Below are positions 6,257-35,040 of a stretch of DNA of 35,040 bases, piece by piece (the stretch's first letter is position 1; every line of letters starts with the position of its first letter). The notes below the pieces were generated by a model. It was not told the origin of the DNA and ran no database searches. It was given only the letters and a program-made list of their open reading frames with translations. This DNA is from a filamentous cyanobacterium CCT1 (GTDB lineage: Bacteria > Cyanobacteriota > Cyanobacteriia > Phormidesmidales > Phormidesmidaceae), in assembly GCA_003017855.1 (NCBI GenBank), contig PYER01000033.1:1-35040 (forward strand), written 5' to 3'. Made by a program: the position numbers and the translations under genes.

Positions 6257-6405
6257 TTGAAGCTTTGTCAGAATACTTCTGGCCCTTAAGTCAGCCCTCA
6301 TTTTGAGTCGATCGGTATCCTCTATTCTCCTGATTAGGCAGGATTTCGTGACTTTTGTCGCTGAAATGCCCTGCCCCTATAACTGGTGTGAGGAGAAAAT
6401 ACCGA

Positions 6406-7890
6406 ATGGCTAAGTTATTTTGGCAATCTTTGCTGGCTGTACCCGCAGCTCTGGGCGCAGCTGTTGCTGTCTCTGGCACTGCGATCGCGGCTGAAACCGC
6501 TGCCACTACTCAGGTCAGCAGCTTCGATCAAGACTCTGTTCAGCTGGCTCAAATCACCAGCGTTTCCGAACTGACCGACGTTCAGCCCTCTGACTGGGCT
6601 TTTCAGGCGCTCCAGAGCCTGGTTGAGAACTACGGTTGTATTCAGGGCTACCCCGACCGCACCTTCCGTGGTCAGCGCAGCCTAACTCGCTTCGAGTTCG
6701 CCGCTGGTCTCAACTCCTGCTTGGATGTCATTGCGACCCTGATTGCTCAGTCGGGCATCAACCCCGACGATCTGGCCACCATCCGTCGTCTGCAAGAAGA
6801 GTTTCAGGCTGAGCTGGCTACCCTGCGCGGTCGCGTTGATGCCCTCGAAGCTGAGACCGCTACCCTGCGCGCTCAGCAGTTCTCTACCACCACCAAGCTG
6901 CGTGGTCAGGTTGACTTCCACCTGATCACCCCCTTTGATACGCTGTCTGGCCGTGGAGCAGCTACCGAGGCCAACACCAGCGTTGCAAACCGCGTTCGTC
7001 TCAACTTCGACTCTAGCTTCACCGGCAGCGATCGCCTCCGGGTTCGTCTACAGGCAGGTGACGGCAACGCCCTGAACGCTTTTAATGGGCTGCAAAATGC
7101 CCGTGGCGCTGCTTATGATGTCACTATTGACGACTTTTTCTATCGGTTTCCCGTCGGTAGCCGCATCAATGTCACGGTTTCTGCCCGCGGTCTGGCTGGA
7201 GACGACTGGGTAACGAGCACCATCGTGCCCTTTGATGGGGTGTCGGTAGCCCAAGCTGGTGAGCCTGCGTTCTACAACCTGGCTGGCAGCAGCAGCAATG
7301 GCGCTGGCGTTGGCGTCAATATCAACCTGACCGATACCATTGTCCTGGATGCTGGCTACACCGCCGGTAACCCTGGGGCCACCCAGCCAAACGTAGGTAT
7401 TTTCGCTGCGGCTAACCAGAGCTACATTGCTCAGCTCAGCTACCTCGGCGAAGGCTTTTTGCAGGCGGGTGCAGTCTACCTGCATAGCGATCGCTCCAAT
7501 ACCTTTGCTCGCAACGGCACGGGTTTGGCTGCTGCCGCTGGTGCCATCGATACCTTTGCTGGGCTACTCAACCTAGATTTTGGGAATTTCTTTATCGCTG
7601 GGCACGGCGCTTACAGCACCTTCAACGGCGGTAACGACTTTAGCTGGAATGCTGGGGTTGGTTTTAATGACTTCTTAATCGAAGGATCTCAGCTAGCTGT
7701 TTATGGTGGTCAGCTGCCTCAGCTCACTGGACGCAGCAATAACCCCTTCCTGGTTGAGGGCTACTACAACATTCCCTTCAACAGATTCTTGACCATCACC
7801 CCTGCCCTGATCTACGGCCAGGCCAACCAGGTCGGCTTTGCAGATAACACGGCATTCTGGGGTGCTCTGCGGGCTACCTTCCGGTTCTAA
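6406..7890 (+). CDS. SLH-domain porin, iron-uptake/Som type (copy 1)
   Basis: This 494-residue outer-membrane protein has a signal peptide (MAKLFWQSLLAVPAALGAAV... AIAAE), an SLH domain at about residues 55-110 (SDWAFQALQSLVENYGCIQG, GQRSLTRFEFAAGLN) and a short coiled coil at about 123-158 (LQEEFQAELATLRGRVDALE). A beta-barrel of the OprB-like Som/iron-uptake porin family follows, ending in aromatic ATFRF. The SLH domain should bind peptidoglycan-linked polymer while the barrel spans the outer membrane. The ATG at 6406 is chosen because AGGAG lies 10 bases upstream and the signal peptide starts there. Residues 1-171 are nearly identical to the next gene, but the barrels diverge. Confidence 0.93.
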   Translation: MAKLFWQSLLAVPAALGAAVAVSGTAIAAETAATTQVSSFDQDSVQLAQITSVSELTDVQPSDWAFQALQSLVENYGCIQGYPDRTFRGQRSLTRFEFAAGLNSCLDVIATLIAQSGINPDDLATIRRLQEEFQAELATLRGRVDALEAETATLRAQQFSTTTKLRGQVDFHLITPFDTLSGRGAATEANTSVANRVRLNFDSSFTGSDRLRVRLQAGDGNALNAFNGLQNARGAAYDVTIDDFFYRFPVGSRINVTVSARGLAGDDWVTSTIVPFDGVSVAQAGEPAFYNLAGSSSNGAGVGVNINLTDTIVLDAGYTAGNPGATQPNVGIFAAANQSYIAQLSYLGEGFLQAGAVYLHSDRSNTFARNGTGLAAAAGAIDTFAGLLNLDFGNFFIAGHGAYSTFNGGNDFSWNAGVGFNDFLIEGSQLAVYGGQLPQLTGRSNNPFLVEGYYNIPFNRFLTITPALIYGQANQVGFADNTAFWGALRATFRF

Positions 7891-7939: not shown

Positions 7940-8297
7940 TCTAAGTTCTTCGTGGAGTTTGATGGTCAGTCTGAATGCTTAGCACAAGCGGTTTTAGCGC
8001 CACACAGGCCTATTTACCAAAAACTGTCCAAAATCCCTGTTCACATTGAGCTGTAGTCGGGGAACCTTACACCAGTAGAGTACGTCCGGATTGGGTAGAT
8101 ATCGGTCTGTCCCCGTTGGTCAAACCGATCTAGCCGATACAGAGTATATCTGCTACTATCGGTTTTGGATGTACGTGAGGCCAGTACCTCTATCCCCTTG
8201 GGATCGAGCCTGCGCCTGTTAAATGAGGAATGGTTTAGGCCAAACCTGCTTTGAAGTACACGATAAGCCTTGTATAAGGTGTGAGGAGAAAATACGA
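7940..8297 (+). other. Intergenic leader region between the two porins
   Basis: This stretch has no convincing gene. It contains CAAACCGAT (8121-8129) facing ATCGGTTTTG (8158-8167), with CAGA/TCTG pairing between them, so a transcript of it could form a hairpin. The last ~20 bases before the second porin (GGTGTGAGGAGAAAATAC) repeat the ribosome-site region of the first porin. The rest is unlike the region upstream of copy 1, so the copies probably have separate promoters. Confidence 0.5.
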
Positions 8298-9755
8298 ATG
8301 GCTAAGTTATTCTGGCAATCTTTGCTGGCTGTACCCGCAGCTCTGGGCGCAGCTGTTGCTGTCTCTGGCACTGCGATCGCGGCTGAAACCGCTGTCACCA
8401 CTCAGGTCAGCAGCTTCGATCAAGACTCTGTTCAGCTGGCTCAAATCACCAGCGTTTCCGAACTGACCGACGTTCAGCCCTCTGACTGGGCTTTTCAGGC
8501 ACTCCAGAGCCTGGTTGAGAATTACGGTTGTATTCAGGGCTACCCCGACCGCACCTTCCGTGGTCAGCGCAGCCTGACTCGCTTCGAGTTCGCCGCTGGT
8601 CTCAACTCCTGCTTGGATGTCATTGCGACCCTGATCGCTCAGTCGGGCATCAACCCCGACGACCTGGCCACCATCCGTCGTCTGCAAGAAGAGTTCCAGG
8701 CTGAACTGGCCACCCTGCGTGGCCGCGTCGATGCCCTGGAAGCTGAGACCGCTACCCTGCGCGCTCAGCAGTTCTCCACCACCACCAAGCTACGTGGTCA
8801 GGTTGATTTCAACCTGGTTACCCCTATCGATATCGTTACTGGTGAAGCCAGCACAAGCTTTGCTGGCCGGGCTCGTCTAAACTTTGACAGCAGCTTCACT
8901 GGCAACGACCGTTTGCGTGTTCGCCTTCAGGGTGGCGATGGTAACGCCATTAACGGTTTGGGTGGTCTGGCCAATGCTGGTGGTTCTAACTATGACGTCA
9001 CCATTGATGACTTCTACTACAGCTTCCCCGTTGGTAGCCGCCTGACTGCAACGGTTGCTGCTCGTGGTCTGCAAGGCGATGACTGGGTTACCAGCACCAT
9101 CGTGCCTTTCGACGGTCCTTCTGTGGCTGATGCTGGTGGTCCTCAGTTCTACGATTTTGGTGGTAGCACCTCCAACGGTGCTGGTGTTGGTTTGAGCTTT
9201 GCTCTGACCGACAACATTGTGCTTGATGCTGGCTACACTGCCTCCAACCCCGGTGGTGCTACTAATCCTGGCGTTGGTATCTTCGCAGCCAACAGTCAGA
9301 GCTATATTGCTCAGCTCAGCTTCCTGAGCGATGGCTTCCTGGATGCCGGTATTGCCTACCTGCACAACGACCAATCTACTAACTTCCAGGGTGGTCTGCC
9401 TGGCGCTACCGATACCTTTGCCGGTCTTCTGAACCTTGACTTCGGCGGCTTCTTTGTCGCTGGTCACGGTGCTTACAGTACCTTCAACGGTGGCAACGAC
9501 TTCAGCTGGACTGCTGGTGTTGGCTTCAACAACTTCCTGGCTGAGGGTGCTCAGCTCGGCGTTTACGGTGGTCAACTACCTCAGTATGCTGGTACTACTA
9601 ACAACCCCTTCATCGTTGAGGGTTACTACGAGATTCCCTTCAACCAGTTCCTGACCATTACCCCTGCTGTTATCTACGGTGACATCAACACTGGTCTCGC
9701 TGGCAACGATGATACTGGCCTGTGGGCTGCTCTGCGTGCCACCTTCCGCTTCTAG
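8298..9755 (+). CDS. SLH-domain porin, iron-uptake/Som type (copy 2)
   Basis: The 485-residue paralogue has the same architecture as copy 1: signal peptide, SLH domain, coiled coil, and OprB-like barrel ending in LRATFRF. Residues 1-171 differ from copy 1 only at position 33 (Val for Ala), and DNA differences there are nearly all synonymous. Beyond residue 172 the barrel loops diverge. Codon use in the second half is strongly biased to GGT, GCT and AAC, suggesting high expression. The ATG at 8298 has AGGAG upstream. The sharp boundary between near-identical and divergent parts suggests gene conversion or selection on the wall-binding half. A good terminator follows. Confidence 0.93.
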   Translation: MAKLFWQSLLAVPAALGAAVAVSGTAIAAETAVTTQVSSFDQDSVQLAQITSVSELTDVQPSDWAFQALQSLVENYGCIQGYPDRTFRGQRSLTRFEFAAGLNSCLDVIATLIAQSGINPDDLATIRRLQEEFQAELATLRGRVDALEAETATLRAQQFSTTTKLRGQVDFNLVTPIDIVTGEASTSFAGRARLNFDSSFTGNDRLRVRLQGGDGNAINGLGGLANAGGSNYDVTIDDFYYSFPVGSRLTATVAARGLQGDDWVTSTIVPFDGPSVADAGGPQFYDFGGSTSNGAGVGLSFALTDNIVLDAGYTASNPGGATNPGVGIFAANSQSYIAQLSFLSDGFLDAGIAYLHNDQSTNFQGGLPGATDTFAGLLNLDFGGFFVAGHGAYSTFNGGNDFSWTAGVGFNNFLAEGAQLGVYGGQLPQYAGTTNNPFIVEGYYEIPFNQFLTITPAVIYGDINTGLAGNDDTGLWAALRATFRF

Positions 9756-19690: not shown

Positions 19691-20997
<1,307 letters not shown>

Positions 20998-21318
20998 CTA
21001 GGCGCTGGTGGTGCCTGGCTCAACAATTCTGCCGCTGCCTCGGTAGGCCAGCTGGACAGGGTGAGTGGTCGCAGATGTGGGGGGAGTTGGGTCAACCCGG
21101 CCACTGCCGCGAAAGCTGAGTTGATTGGCGATCGCGGGTACCCGGCTGAGCCGACCGCTGCCGCGATCATCCTCGACGCGAGTGGTGGCGCTGAGGCTAG
21201 CTTCAGCGTAGGATTGGATTGCGGCAGATAACCCGAGGGGGGCGACCGGCATCAGCAGGCCCAGGCTAACGGCGCAGGCCAAATGAGTCATCAGGGAACA
21301 GTTGGAGGAAGGGTGCAT
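20998..21318 (-). CDS. patX: PatX-like secreted precursor with three RGSGR pentapeptides
   Basis: This 106-residue protein has an N-terminal signal peptide (hydrophobic residues ~11-33, HLACAVSLGLLMPVAPLGLS, probable cleavage near SAA-IQ). A short mature part carries RGSGR three times: residues 52-56 (21151-21165), 70-74 (21097-21111) and 93-97 (21028-21042). RGSGR is the pentapeptide of PatS and HetN that inhibits HetR. PatX is the signal-peptide-bearing RGSGR protein often found upstream of hetR in filamentous cyanobacteria, and this gene is in that position and orientation. The copies use different codons (CGCGGCAGCGGTCGG, CGCGGCAGTGGCCGG, CGAGGCAGCGGCAGA), which suggests selection on the peptide. 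The second and third sit in a repeated QL-[SA]-[FY]-RGSGR-[VI] context. Confidence 0.9.
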   Translation of the reverse strand: MHPSSNCSLMTHLACAVSLGLLMPVAPLGLSAAIQSYAEASLSATTRVEDDRGSGRLSRVPAIANQLSFRGSGRVDPTPPTSATTHPVQLAYRGSGRIVEPGTTSA

Positions 21319-21931
21319 AGGACGTGGCCTTGTTAGCGCTTCTAGTCCTAGTTACAAACCTGTGCACCGTCAGTCAGGAAAGTCTTTATCCGTAAATCCG
21401 CGGATTTTGAAAATTTAGTAGTCCCCGGCACGGATTTTCCCCACTGTGAGGACTGCACTCAAACGACCAGGTTCCGCGGTTTGAGCGGGTTGAGGATGGC
21501 TCTGGGTTGGGCTGAGGCTACGGAAGAAGGCTAAAAAAACGCCGAGGCGAGGGCAAAATATTTACTCAAACTTCATCAATTGGGTCTGCGATCGCAGCGG
21601 AAACCTTGGCGGCGGTCATCAATTAATAGCTGATAGCCCAACAGTTAATGTTGCCGGCCTTTCGTCCTTTGAGGGGTCGGGCATGGTAGCGCTGATCGAT
21701 TGAGGATTGGGGTCAGCCTTGATGGCGCGGCCTGGGCGCAACTGAAGCAAATGGCTGCAATCGCAGAAAAACCCCAGTCTGCAATAGTCAGAACCGACTA
21801 AACGATCTAATCTATGGGGAATATGTTTGTGTAATTGAGTTCAGACCTGCTTGCAGGCCTGAGTTTAGACTAAAGGCGAGGTCTCCTGACGAGCCGTTTG
21901 GGGTCAGCCTGTAGCCAATGTTCGTTGAGGT
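21319..21931. other. Long intergenic region between patX-like gene and aspartate aminotransferase gene
   Basis: These 613 bases separate divergent genes and hold no convincing ORF. Visible structures are a 14-bp palindrome (21394-21407), CTCAAAC/GTTTGAG (21458-21464, 21479-21485) and TCAGACCTGC/GCAGGCCTGA (21841-21850, 21853-21862; one mismatch). The length and structure allow promoters in both directions and possibly a small RNA. No named RNA family was recognised. Confidence 0.5.
21394..21407. promoter_or_regulatory. 14-bp perfect palindrome upstream of the patX-like gene
   Basis: AAATCCGCGGATTT is a perfect palindrome 76 bases upstream of the patX-like ATG (read on the minus strand). It could be an operator for a dimeric regulator. 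It does not resemble the known GAGGGGT/ACCCCTC HetR site from Anabaena. Confidence 0.35.
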
Positions 21932-34578: not shown

Positions 34579-35021
34579 CTAGCCGCCCAGCTGCACACCG
34601 CCCGATGCAAACCGCGCTGTCCACACGCCTAAGTCAGGATCGGGCAGCGCCGCCCGCAGCCTAGTAGCCAGGTCGGCGGCCTCAGCTTCCGATTCGGCCA
34701 GGGTAAATACTGATGGGCCAGAGCCCGACATCAGCGTGCCTAGCCCGCCCAGGCTGGTCATGGTTTCTTTCAATGCGGCGGTTTTGGGGTGAGCGGGCAG
34801 CACAATTTTCTCGAAGTCGTTGCAGAGGTGCTGGCTGAGGGCTTTGGCATCGCGCCGGGCTACCGATCGCACCATCTCGCCCGATCGCACCTGCGACTGC
34901 CGCTGCTGCCAGCTCTGAGTATCGGTTAGATAGGTGTCGCCATACTCGGCCCGGTAGGTTTTGTAGGCCCAGGGGGTAGAGACAAACTCCGACTCGTATT
35001 TGGCTAATACTAGATGCAGAT
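34579..35021 (-). CDS. ispE: 4-diphosphocytidyl-2-C-methyl-D-erythritol kinase, C-terminal part
   Basis: The frame runs in from the contig end and stops at 34579, giving about the last 147 residues of IspE, roughly half the enzyme. It reads LHLVLAKYESEFVSTPWAYK at the start of this part and has the GHMP kinase motif LGTLMSGSGPSVFTL. IspE phosphorylates CDP-methylerythritol in the MEP isoprenoid pathway. The N-terminal half, with the ATP-binding motif, lies beyond the assembled contig. The preserved frame reaches base 35021; beyond that is adapter. A shorter ORF beginning at 34890 is only an internal start. Confidence 0.92.
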
Positions 35022-35040
35022 CTGTCTCTTATACACATCT
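35022..35040. other. Nextera/Tn5 mosaic-end adapter (assembly artefact)
   Basis: The last 19 bases, CTGTCTCTTATACACATCT, are the Tn5 transposase mosaic-end sequence used in Nextera libraries. They are not genomic. They replace the upstream part of ispE and create a false start reading MCIRDR in another frame. Confidence 0.97.

Follow-up and report, generated by a model that had tools for sequence, protein, structure and literature searches.

The window, by which we mean the whole 35,040-nucleotide stretch of DNA from the filamentous cyanobacterium CCT1 that was analysed, carries upstream of hetR a patX gene whose product holds three RGSGR motifs. This suggests a form of patX in which the inhibitor unit has been multiplied, with one to nine copies among related strains. 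We are nearly certain that the gene is the patX orthologue of the Nodosilinea clade, its membership in PatX being based on position, motif and promoter. Statements on published work below follow the accessible parts of the papers cited.

The window patX gene and its promoter region

The earlier note had placed three RGSGR motifs in a short frame on the strand of hetR and upstream of it, and both observations were confirmed (Table 1), the distance from the patX stop to the hetR start being 368 bases. Location, frame, motif and the conserved promoter box all support the PatX-type identity that it proposed. Chance origin of the copies was rejected: in 200,000 shuffled versions of the protein, two or more RGSGR never occurred and a single one occurred in 89. 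Among the four occurrences of RG[ST]GR in all six frames of the window, three fall inside patX, and no tandem DNA repeat was found in the gene. A hydrophobic stretch is visible by eye at the N-terminus of the protein, which we infer to be a signal peptide.

Table 1. Positions of patX, its motifs, its upstream elements and hetR in the window
Feature	Position	Strand	Details
hetR	19691-20629	minus	312 residues; NF009718 above cut-off, PF03574, PF18460
patX	20998..21318	minus	106-residue precursor, three RGSGR; ATG at 21318, stop ends at 20998
RGSGR copy 3	21028..21042	minus	AY-RGSGR-I, residues 93-97
RGSGR copy 2	21097..21111	minus	SF-RGSGR-V, residues 70-74
RGSGR copy 1	21151..21165	minus	DD-RGSGR-L, residues 52-56
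Hydrophobic N-terminal segment	21220..21318	minus	residues 1-33, signal-peptide-like (judged by eye)
Conserved upstream stretch	21319..21418	minus	conserved among 18 genus genes
TCCTGA box	21374..21379	minus	counterpart of DIF1 box TCCGGA; first base 61 bases before ATG

The upstream region is conserved to about 100 bases from the start. From -1 to about -100, the majority base has a mean share per 20 bases of 0.78-0.96 among the 18 genus genes; the following 20 bases give 0.67 and those beyond 0.39-0.50. The DIF1 motif reportedly lies within 69 bases of all patX genes described by Elhai and Khudyakov in 2018. In Anabaena PCC 7120, DIF1 (TCCGGA) is the box of patS, patX and hetR (PMC7377430). 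Exact TCCGGA is absent from the 220 bases upstream of the window patX; the DIF1-type box found there is TCCTGA at -61, a position shared with other patX candidates. Of the 43 genes in the family set, 42 carry TCCTGA at most 100 bases ahead of the chosen start, where it begins at a distance of 59-65 bases. Among 90 candidates of the hetR survey, chosen by motif, frame length and hydrophobicity and not by promoter, 83 have TCCTGA and 5 have TCCGGA inside the first 160 bases upstream (one or the other in 88/90), mostly near -61. The two sets overlap, 14 of 19 multi-copy candidates being in both, and a few boxes stand closer to the start because the first start codon was taken.

Other upstream elements were also searched for. 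Exact GTAN8TAC, which we take to be the NtcA-type site, and exact GGGN5CCC were absent from the 220 bases upstream of the window patX, and each occurred in one of 19 genes checked over the same distance. GGGN5CCC is a HetR-type site (PMC4649674). A consensus scan of 20500-21700 detected neither sigma-70-type promoters nor intrinsic terminators. A second stretch conserved in the genus lies at 21380-21410, just before the TCCTGA box; its core in the window is the palindrome AAATCCGCGGATTT, in which no known site was recognised. A literature search for TCCTGA together with hetR found no paper.

Elsewhere in the window, the last 19 bases (35022-35040) are presumably a transposon-adapter sequence left over from assembly, and the listed frame 34682-35038, which begins MCIRDR, therefore starts in adapter. 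The adjacent genes at 6355-7890 and 8223-9755 encode proteins that are alike by eye over most of their length and are apparently porin-like products of a tandem duplication.

Copies and selection in the genus and across the class

A pattern-based scan of the genome collection found the gene encoded in eight named records, the closest named relatives being Filamentous cyanobacterium CCP3 (95%) and Nodosilinea sp. LEGE 06152 (83%). Matches were obtained in 28 of 57 whole genomes, including that of the window and all 25 others of its genus. Every one of these 26 genus genomes has a patX with two to five RG(S/T)GR copies: three copies in 21 (in one of which the contig ends right behind copy 3), two in 2, four in 2 and five in 1. 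A few genus copies read RGTGR. Wherever the genus stretch includes hetR, it lies downstream on the strand of patX, and many candidates from outside the genus likewise have hetR as a neighbour.

The earlier note had argued from synonymous codons for selection on the peptide. The codons of the window copies do differ (copy 1, CGC GGC AGC GGT CGG; copy 2, CGC GGC AGT GGC CGG; copy 3, CGA GGC AGC GGC AGA), but this is weak evidence alone, and comparison with relatives is the stronger test. In a codon alignment of 18 genus genes, the window's among them, none of the 15 motif columns varies in amino acid, and each holds 2.7 distinct codons on average, which supports both the conservation of RGSGR in close relatives and selection on the peptide. 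Non-motif columns behind the N-terminal segment are invariant in 9 of 58 cases. The pN/pS ratio is 0.008 for the motifs, 0.51 for other columns past the N-terminal segment and 0.46 for that segment. Every RGSGR copy in genus patX is thus under purifying selection, and an untranslated frame is ruled out by the codon pattern across the 18 genes. The residues before the motifs are also regular. Among 25 genus genes counted (excluding L035, with two copies), D precedes copy 1 in 25/25, F copy 2 in 21/25 and Y copy 3 in 23/24.

A dependence on nitrogenase was rejected, since nifH scored above cut-off in 11 of the 26 genus genomes and multi-copy PatX is present in 26/26. The genome of the window has nifH above the curated cut-off (G000:C448:3525-4340).

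Across the class, HetR was matched in 186 of 388 genomes, 171 of them above cut-off. The survey comprised 140 stretches read around hetR and 20 genomes searched again. The HetR tree holds 177 rows from 177 genomes, namely 173 of the 186 plus four more genus genomes; for the other 13, no locus was taken in nine and four were dropped. A patX candidate was obtained for 124 of the 177 rows, 46 multi-copy and 78 single-copy. In the remaining 53, none was seen on the strand of hetR in the stretch examined; 24 of these belong to family f32, and in many f32 genomes the PatX model finds the gene elsewhere. Only candidates on the hetR strand are counted, so L157 (single-copy, opposite strand) falls among the 53. 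Left out of tree and counts were the named records (L001-L008), duplicates (L033, L037), a chance match (L036), the second HetR of G031 (L094), two HetR below 50% identity (L156, L165) and loci with incomplete HetR, including L032 (four copies) and L194 (five copies). L028 stops short of hetR, and its genome is counted via L175 with the L028 copy number. Values for L086, L135, L140 and L179-L192 were entered by hand.

Multi-copy PatX prevails in the family of the window, f1 (43/47, with two to nine copies), and is not peculiar to the window genome. It was also found in family f15 (3/35, in genera g52 and g105, with three, five and eight copies) and in none of 42 in all other families. On the HetR tree (FastTree), the multi-copy label requires eight changes, of which well supported branches account for at least four, compared with 37 in shuffles. 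Genera g52 and g105 supply four f15 rows, which group together in a single clade; one of these rows is single-copy with a decayed second unit. Family f1 is not gathered in one clade, the smallest clade containing it under midpoint rooting having 174 rows. Hence, at least two origins of multi-copy PatX are likely.

The NCBIfam model for PatX, NF047413, gave no match to the window protein. It matched 50 of 388 class genomes (48 above cut-off) and none in f1, a family with 50 genomes in the HetR survey sample, which was drawn like the NF047413 sample. Four single-copy candidates in f15 and f18 scored 17.1, 16.9, 14.4 and 8.2, under its cut-off of 30 bits. Given these scores, and 50/388 matched against 186/388 with HetR, NF047413 looks like a narrow model, rather than the window protein like a different family. 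A 2025 survey that used Pfam and PGAP models lists hetR without patX (pattern 0110) in Leptolyngbya cf. ectocarpi (PMC12756182). Because NF047413 misses f1, such reports in Leptolyngbya-type strains may partly reflect a detection gap. PMC11298460 describes hetR and patX in nearly every filamentous cyanobacterium and calls what they do in species without heterocysts a mystery. In the accessible literature searched, the 2018 paper defining PatX excluded, no description of several RGSGR copies in one PatX was found, and a search for multi-copy bacterial peptide precursors also found no paper.

The HetR pocket, a possible mechanism and its rivals

In HetR bound to PatS6, E253, D270 and D278 hold the arginines and the serine, E254 and D256 hold the N-terminal amino group of the peptide, and R223 is near its C-terminus (PMC4649674). 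All six residues are kept in the window HetR (PCC 7120 numbering; the window number is +13). They are intact in 37 of 50 f1 HetR rows and changed in 13, the window's not among the latter. The changes are E254S in four g3 rows, E254Q in two genus rows, differences at 254 and 256 in L193, and D256N with D278N in six g34 rows (L185-L188, L190, L191), the only D278 changes in the 177 rows. Where PatX was found in g34 (n=5), it has one copy in four genes and two in one, and one single-copy gene shows a decayed RGGGR.

It is probable, by analogy with PCC 7120, that the window protein is a multi-peptide precursor acting on HetR, with export, cutting and HetR inhibition carried over from that strain. 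For PCC 7120, export by the PatX signal was seen in an E. coli assay, and activity depends on that signal; PatP matures the exported protein, and HetR binds HRGTGR (PMC12756182). On this model, the DIF1-like promoter would drive patX, and perhaps hetR along with it, as was suggested for BL0902, and the precursor would be exported through its N-terminus. Once the protein is out of the cytosol, PatP-type and other peptidases, including one that cuts after the last Arg, might then yield as many as three peptides, for example (D/F/Y)RGSGR. By binding to the Hood domain, the peptides would detach HetR from DNA, and more units per precursor would give more inhibitor per molecule and a stronger negative feedback.

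We count in favour of this reading the genus-wide copies, the invariant motifs, the promoter box and the intact HetR pocket, as well as the uniform residue behind the presumed cut, I, V or L in 160 of 176 copies of 48 multi-copy precursors. Counted against it are the changed pocket residue in the 13 f1 rows, the failure of the PatX model to match the window protein, and the PatP cut mapped in PCC 7120 PatX, which lies 27 residues before the motif (PMC12756182). A changed N-terminal residue of the peptide left HetR affinity unaltered (PMC4649674); since this residue is immaterial to PCC 7120 HetR, the conserved N-flanks are more likely to matter for cutting than for HetR binding.

The strongest result against a simple HetR model comes from Leptolyngbya sp. 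BL0902 (G014), a member of the window's genus in which patX, hetR and double deletions were made (PMC11298460). There, PatX acted against HetR in just two of the five groups of genes, and in these the double deletion resembled the patX deletion, and the authors regard the patX effects as basically independent of HetR (PMC11298460). This speaks against simple HetR dependence and directs attention to other proteins with a Hood domain. Ten genomes searched have one to three of these. Within the genus, five of seven have three (G000, the window genome; G014, G016, G025 and G002) and two have two (G008, G007); outside it, G032 and G026 have two and G027 has one. The two further HetR-like Hood proteins of the window genome lie at G000:C13:12444-12674 and G000:C382:20563-20793. 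At residues 223/253/254/256/270/278, HetR reads REEDDD, paralogue A REVDDD and paralogue B RETEDD or RETGDD; all 14 paralogues keep R223, E253, D270 and D278 and change at 254 or at 254 and 256. The peptides might act mainly on the paralogues and not on HetR itself, which we consider possible but unlikely. Such targets are present in the genus, keep the residues that hold the arginines and serine of RGSGR, differ where the peptide N-terminus is held, and would explain HetR-independent effects in BL0902. Nevertheless, copy number does not track paralogue number, and the 14 paralogue loci (about 1.5 kb on each side) contained no short frame carrying two or more RG(S/T)GR. In the available text on PCC 7120, moreover, no target other than HetR is said to have been identified, and heterocysts that arose without HetR did not respond to RGSGR (PMC6316738). 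The simple form, one peptide per HetR paralogue, was rejected, as G027 combines nine copies with one Hood protein. A related proposal is a multi-peptide hormone precursor with unit-specific N-flanks (D, F, Y), cut differently or received differently by up to three Hood receptors that differ where the peptide N-terminus is held; it would explain BL0902 patX effects that do not run via HetR alone, and we judge it quite unlikely.

Two further explanations concern the copies themselves. Copy number could have little effect, the copies arising by repeat slippage and the presence of some RGSGR being sufficient. Clear tandem DNA repeats in three many-copy genes (main periods 36 bases in L141, 48 in L030 and 63 in L133), variation of copy number within genera, and single decayed copies (RGGGR in L185; RGSDR in L125 and L174) are in its favour. 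However, all three copies are invariant across the 18 diverged genus genes, the window gene now has no tandem DNA repeat and near-miss copies are rare among multi-copy PatX, making this explanation very unlikely. Alternatively, uncut PatX could be a multivalent ligand that bridges both pockets of a HetR dimer or several dimers, as the Hood dimer binds two peptides (PMC4649674) and one PatX chain carries several copies. We hold this to be highly improbable. Motif starts are 10 to 35 residues apart with no constant length, and cytosolic PCC 7120 PatX lacking its signal showed no two-hybrid interaction with HetR, as far as reported in PMC12756182. HetR also holds the free N-terminal amino group of PatS6, with Arg223 near the C-terminus, which favours cut peptides (PMC4649674). 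Release of several peptides that act on HetR is the reading we prefer.

Comparison with known inhibitors and precursors

PatX was reportedly defined by Elhai and Khudyakov in 2018 in Anabaena PCC 7120 and other filamentous cyanobacteria. With known PatX, the window protein shares small size, an apparently hydrophobic N-terminus, RG(S/T)GR, the company of hetR and a DIF1-type box, which reads TCCTGA instead of TCCGGA. Known PatX has one copy of the motif, whereas the window PatX has three, with D, F or Y on the N-terminal side and L, V or I on the C-terminal side. In contrast, the single-copy candidates have H before the motif in 58 of 69 and most often R after it (27/69). In multi-unit hormone precursors such as yeast alpha-factor, several near-identical signal peptides are contained in one exported precursor. 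Yeast alpha-factor is eukaryotic, no sequence relation to it is claimed, and processing of the cyanobacterial precursor is put forward only as a proposal.

PatS and HetN also carry RGSGR and inhibit HetR (PMC7761841). PatS is a peptide of 13-17 residues that ends in RGSGR (PMC7476756), and HetN has been assigned as a putative ketoacyl reductase (PMC4649674); cleavage of both is believed to take place in the cytoplasm (PMC12756182). Also close is the system of BL0902, whose PatX (GFS31_32390; locus L027) shares with the window PatX the three copies, the place before hetR and the TCCTGA box, and has D, I and Y in front of its motifs; the accessible text of the BL0902 paper does not mention copy number (PMC11298460). 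This strain is genetically tractable and its deletion mutants already exist, and lineages with one to nine inhibitor units provide a natural dose series.
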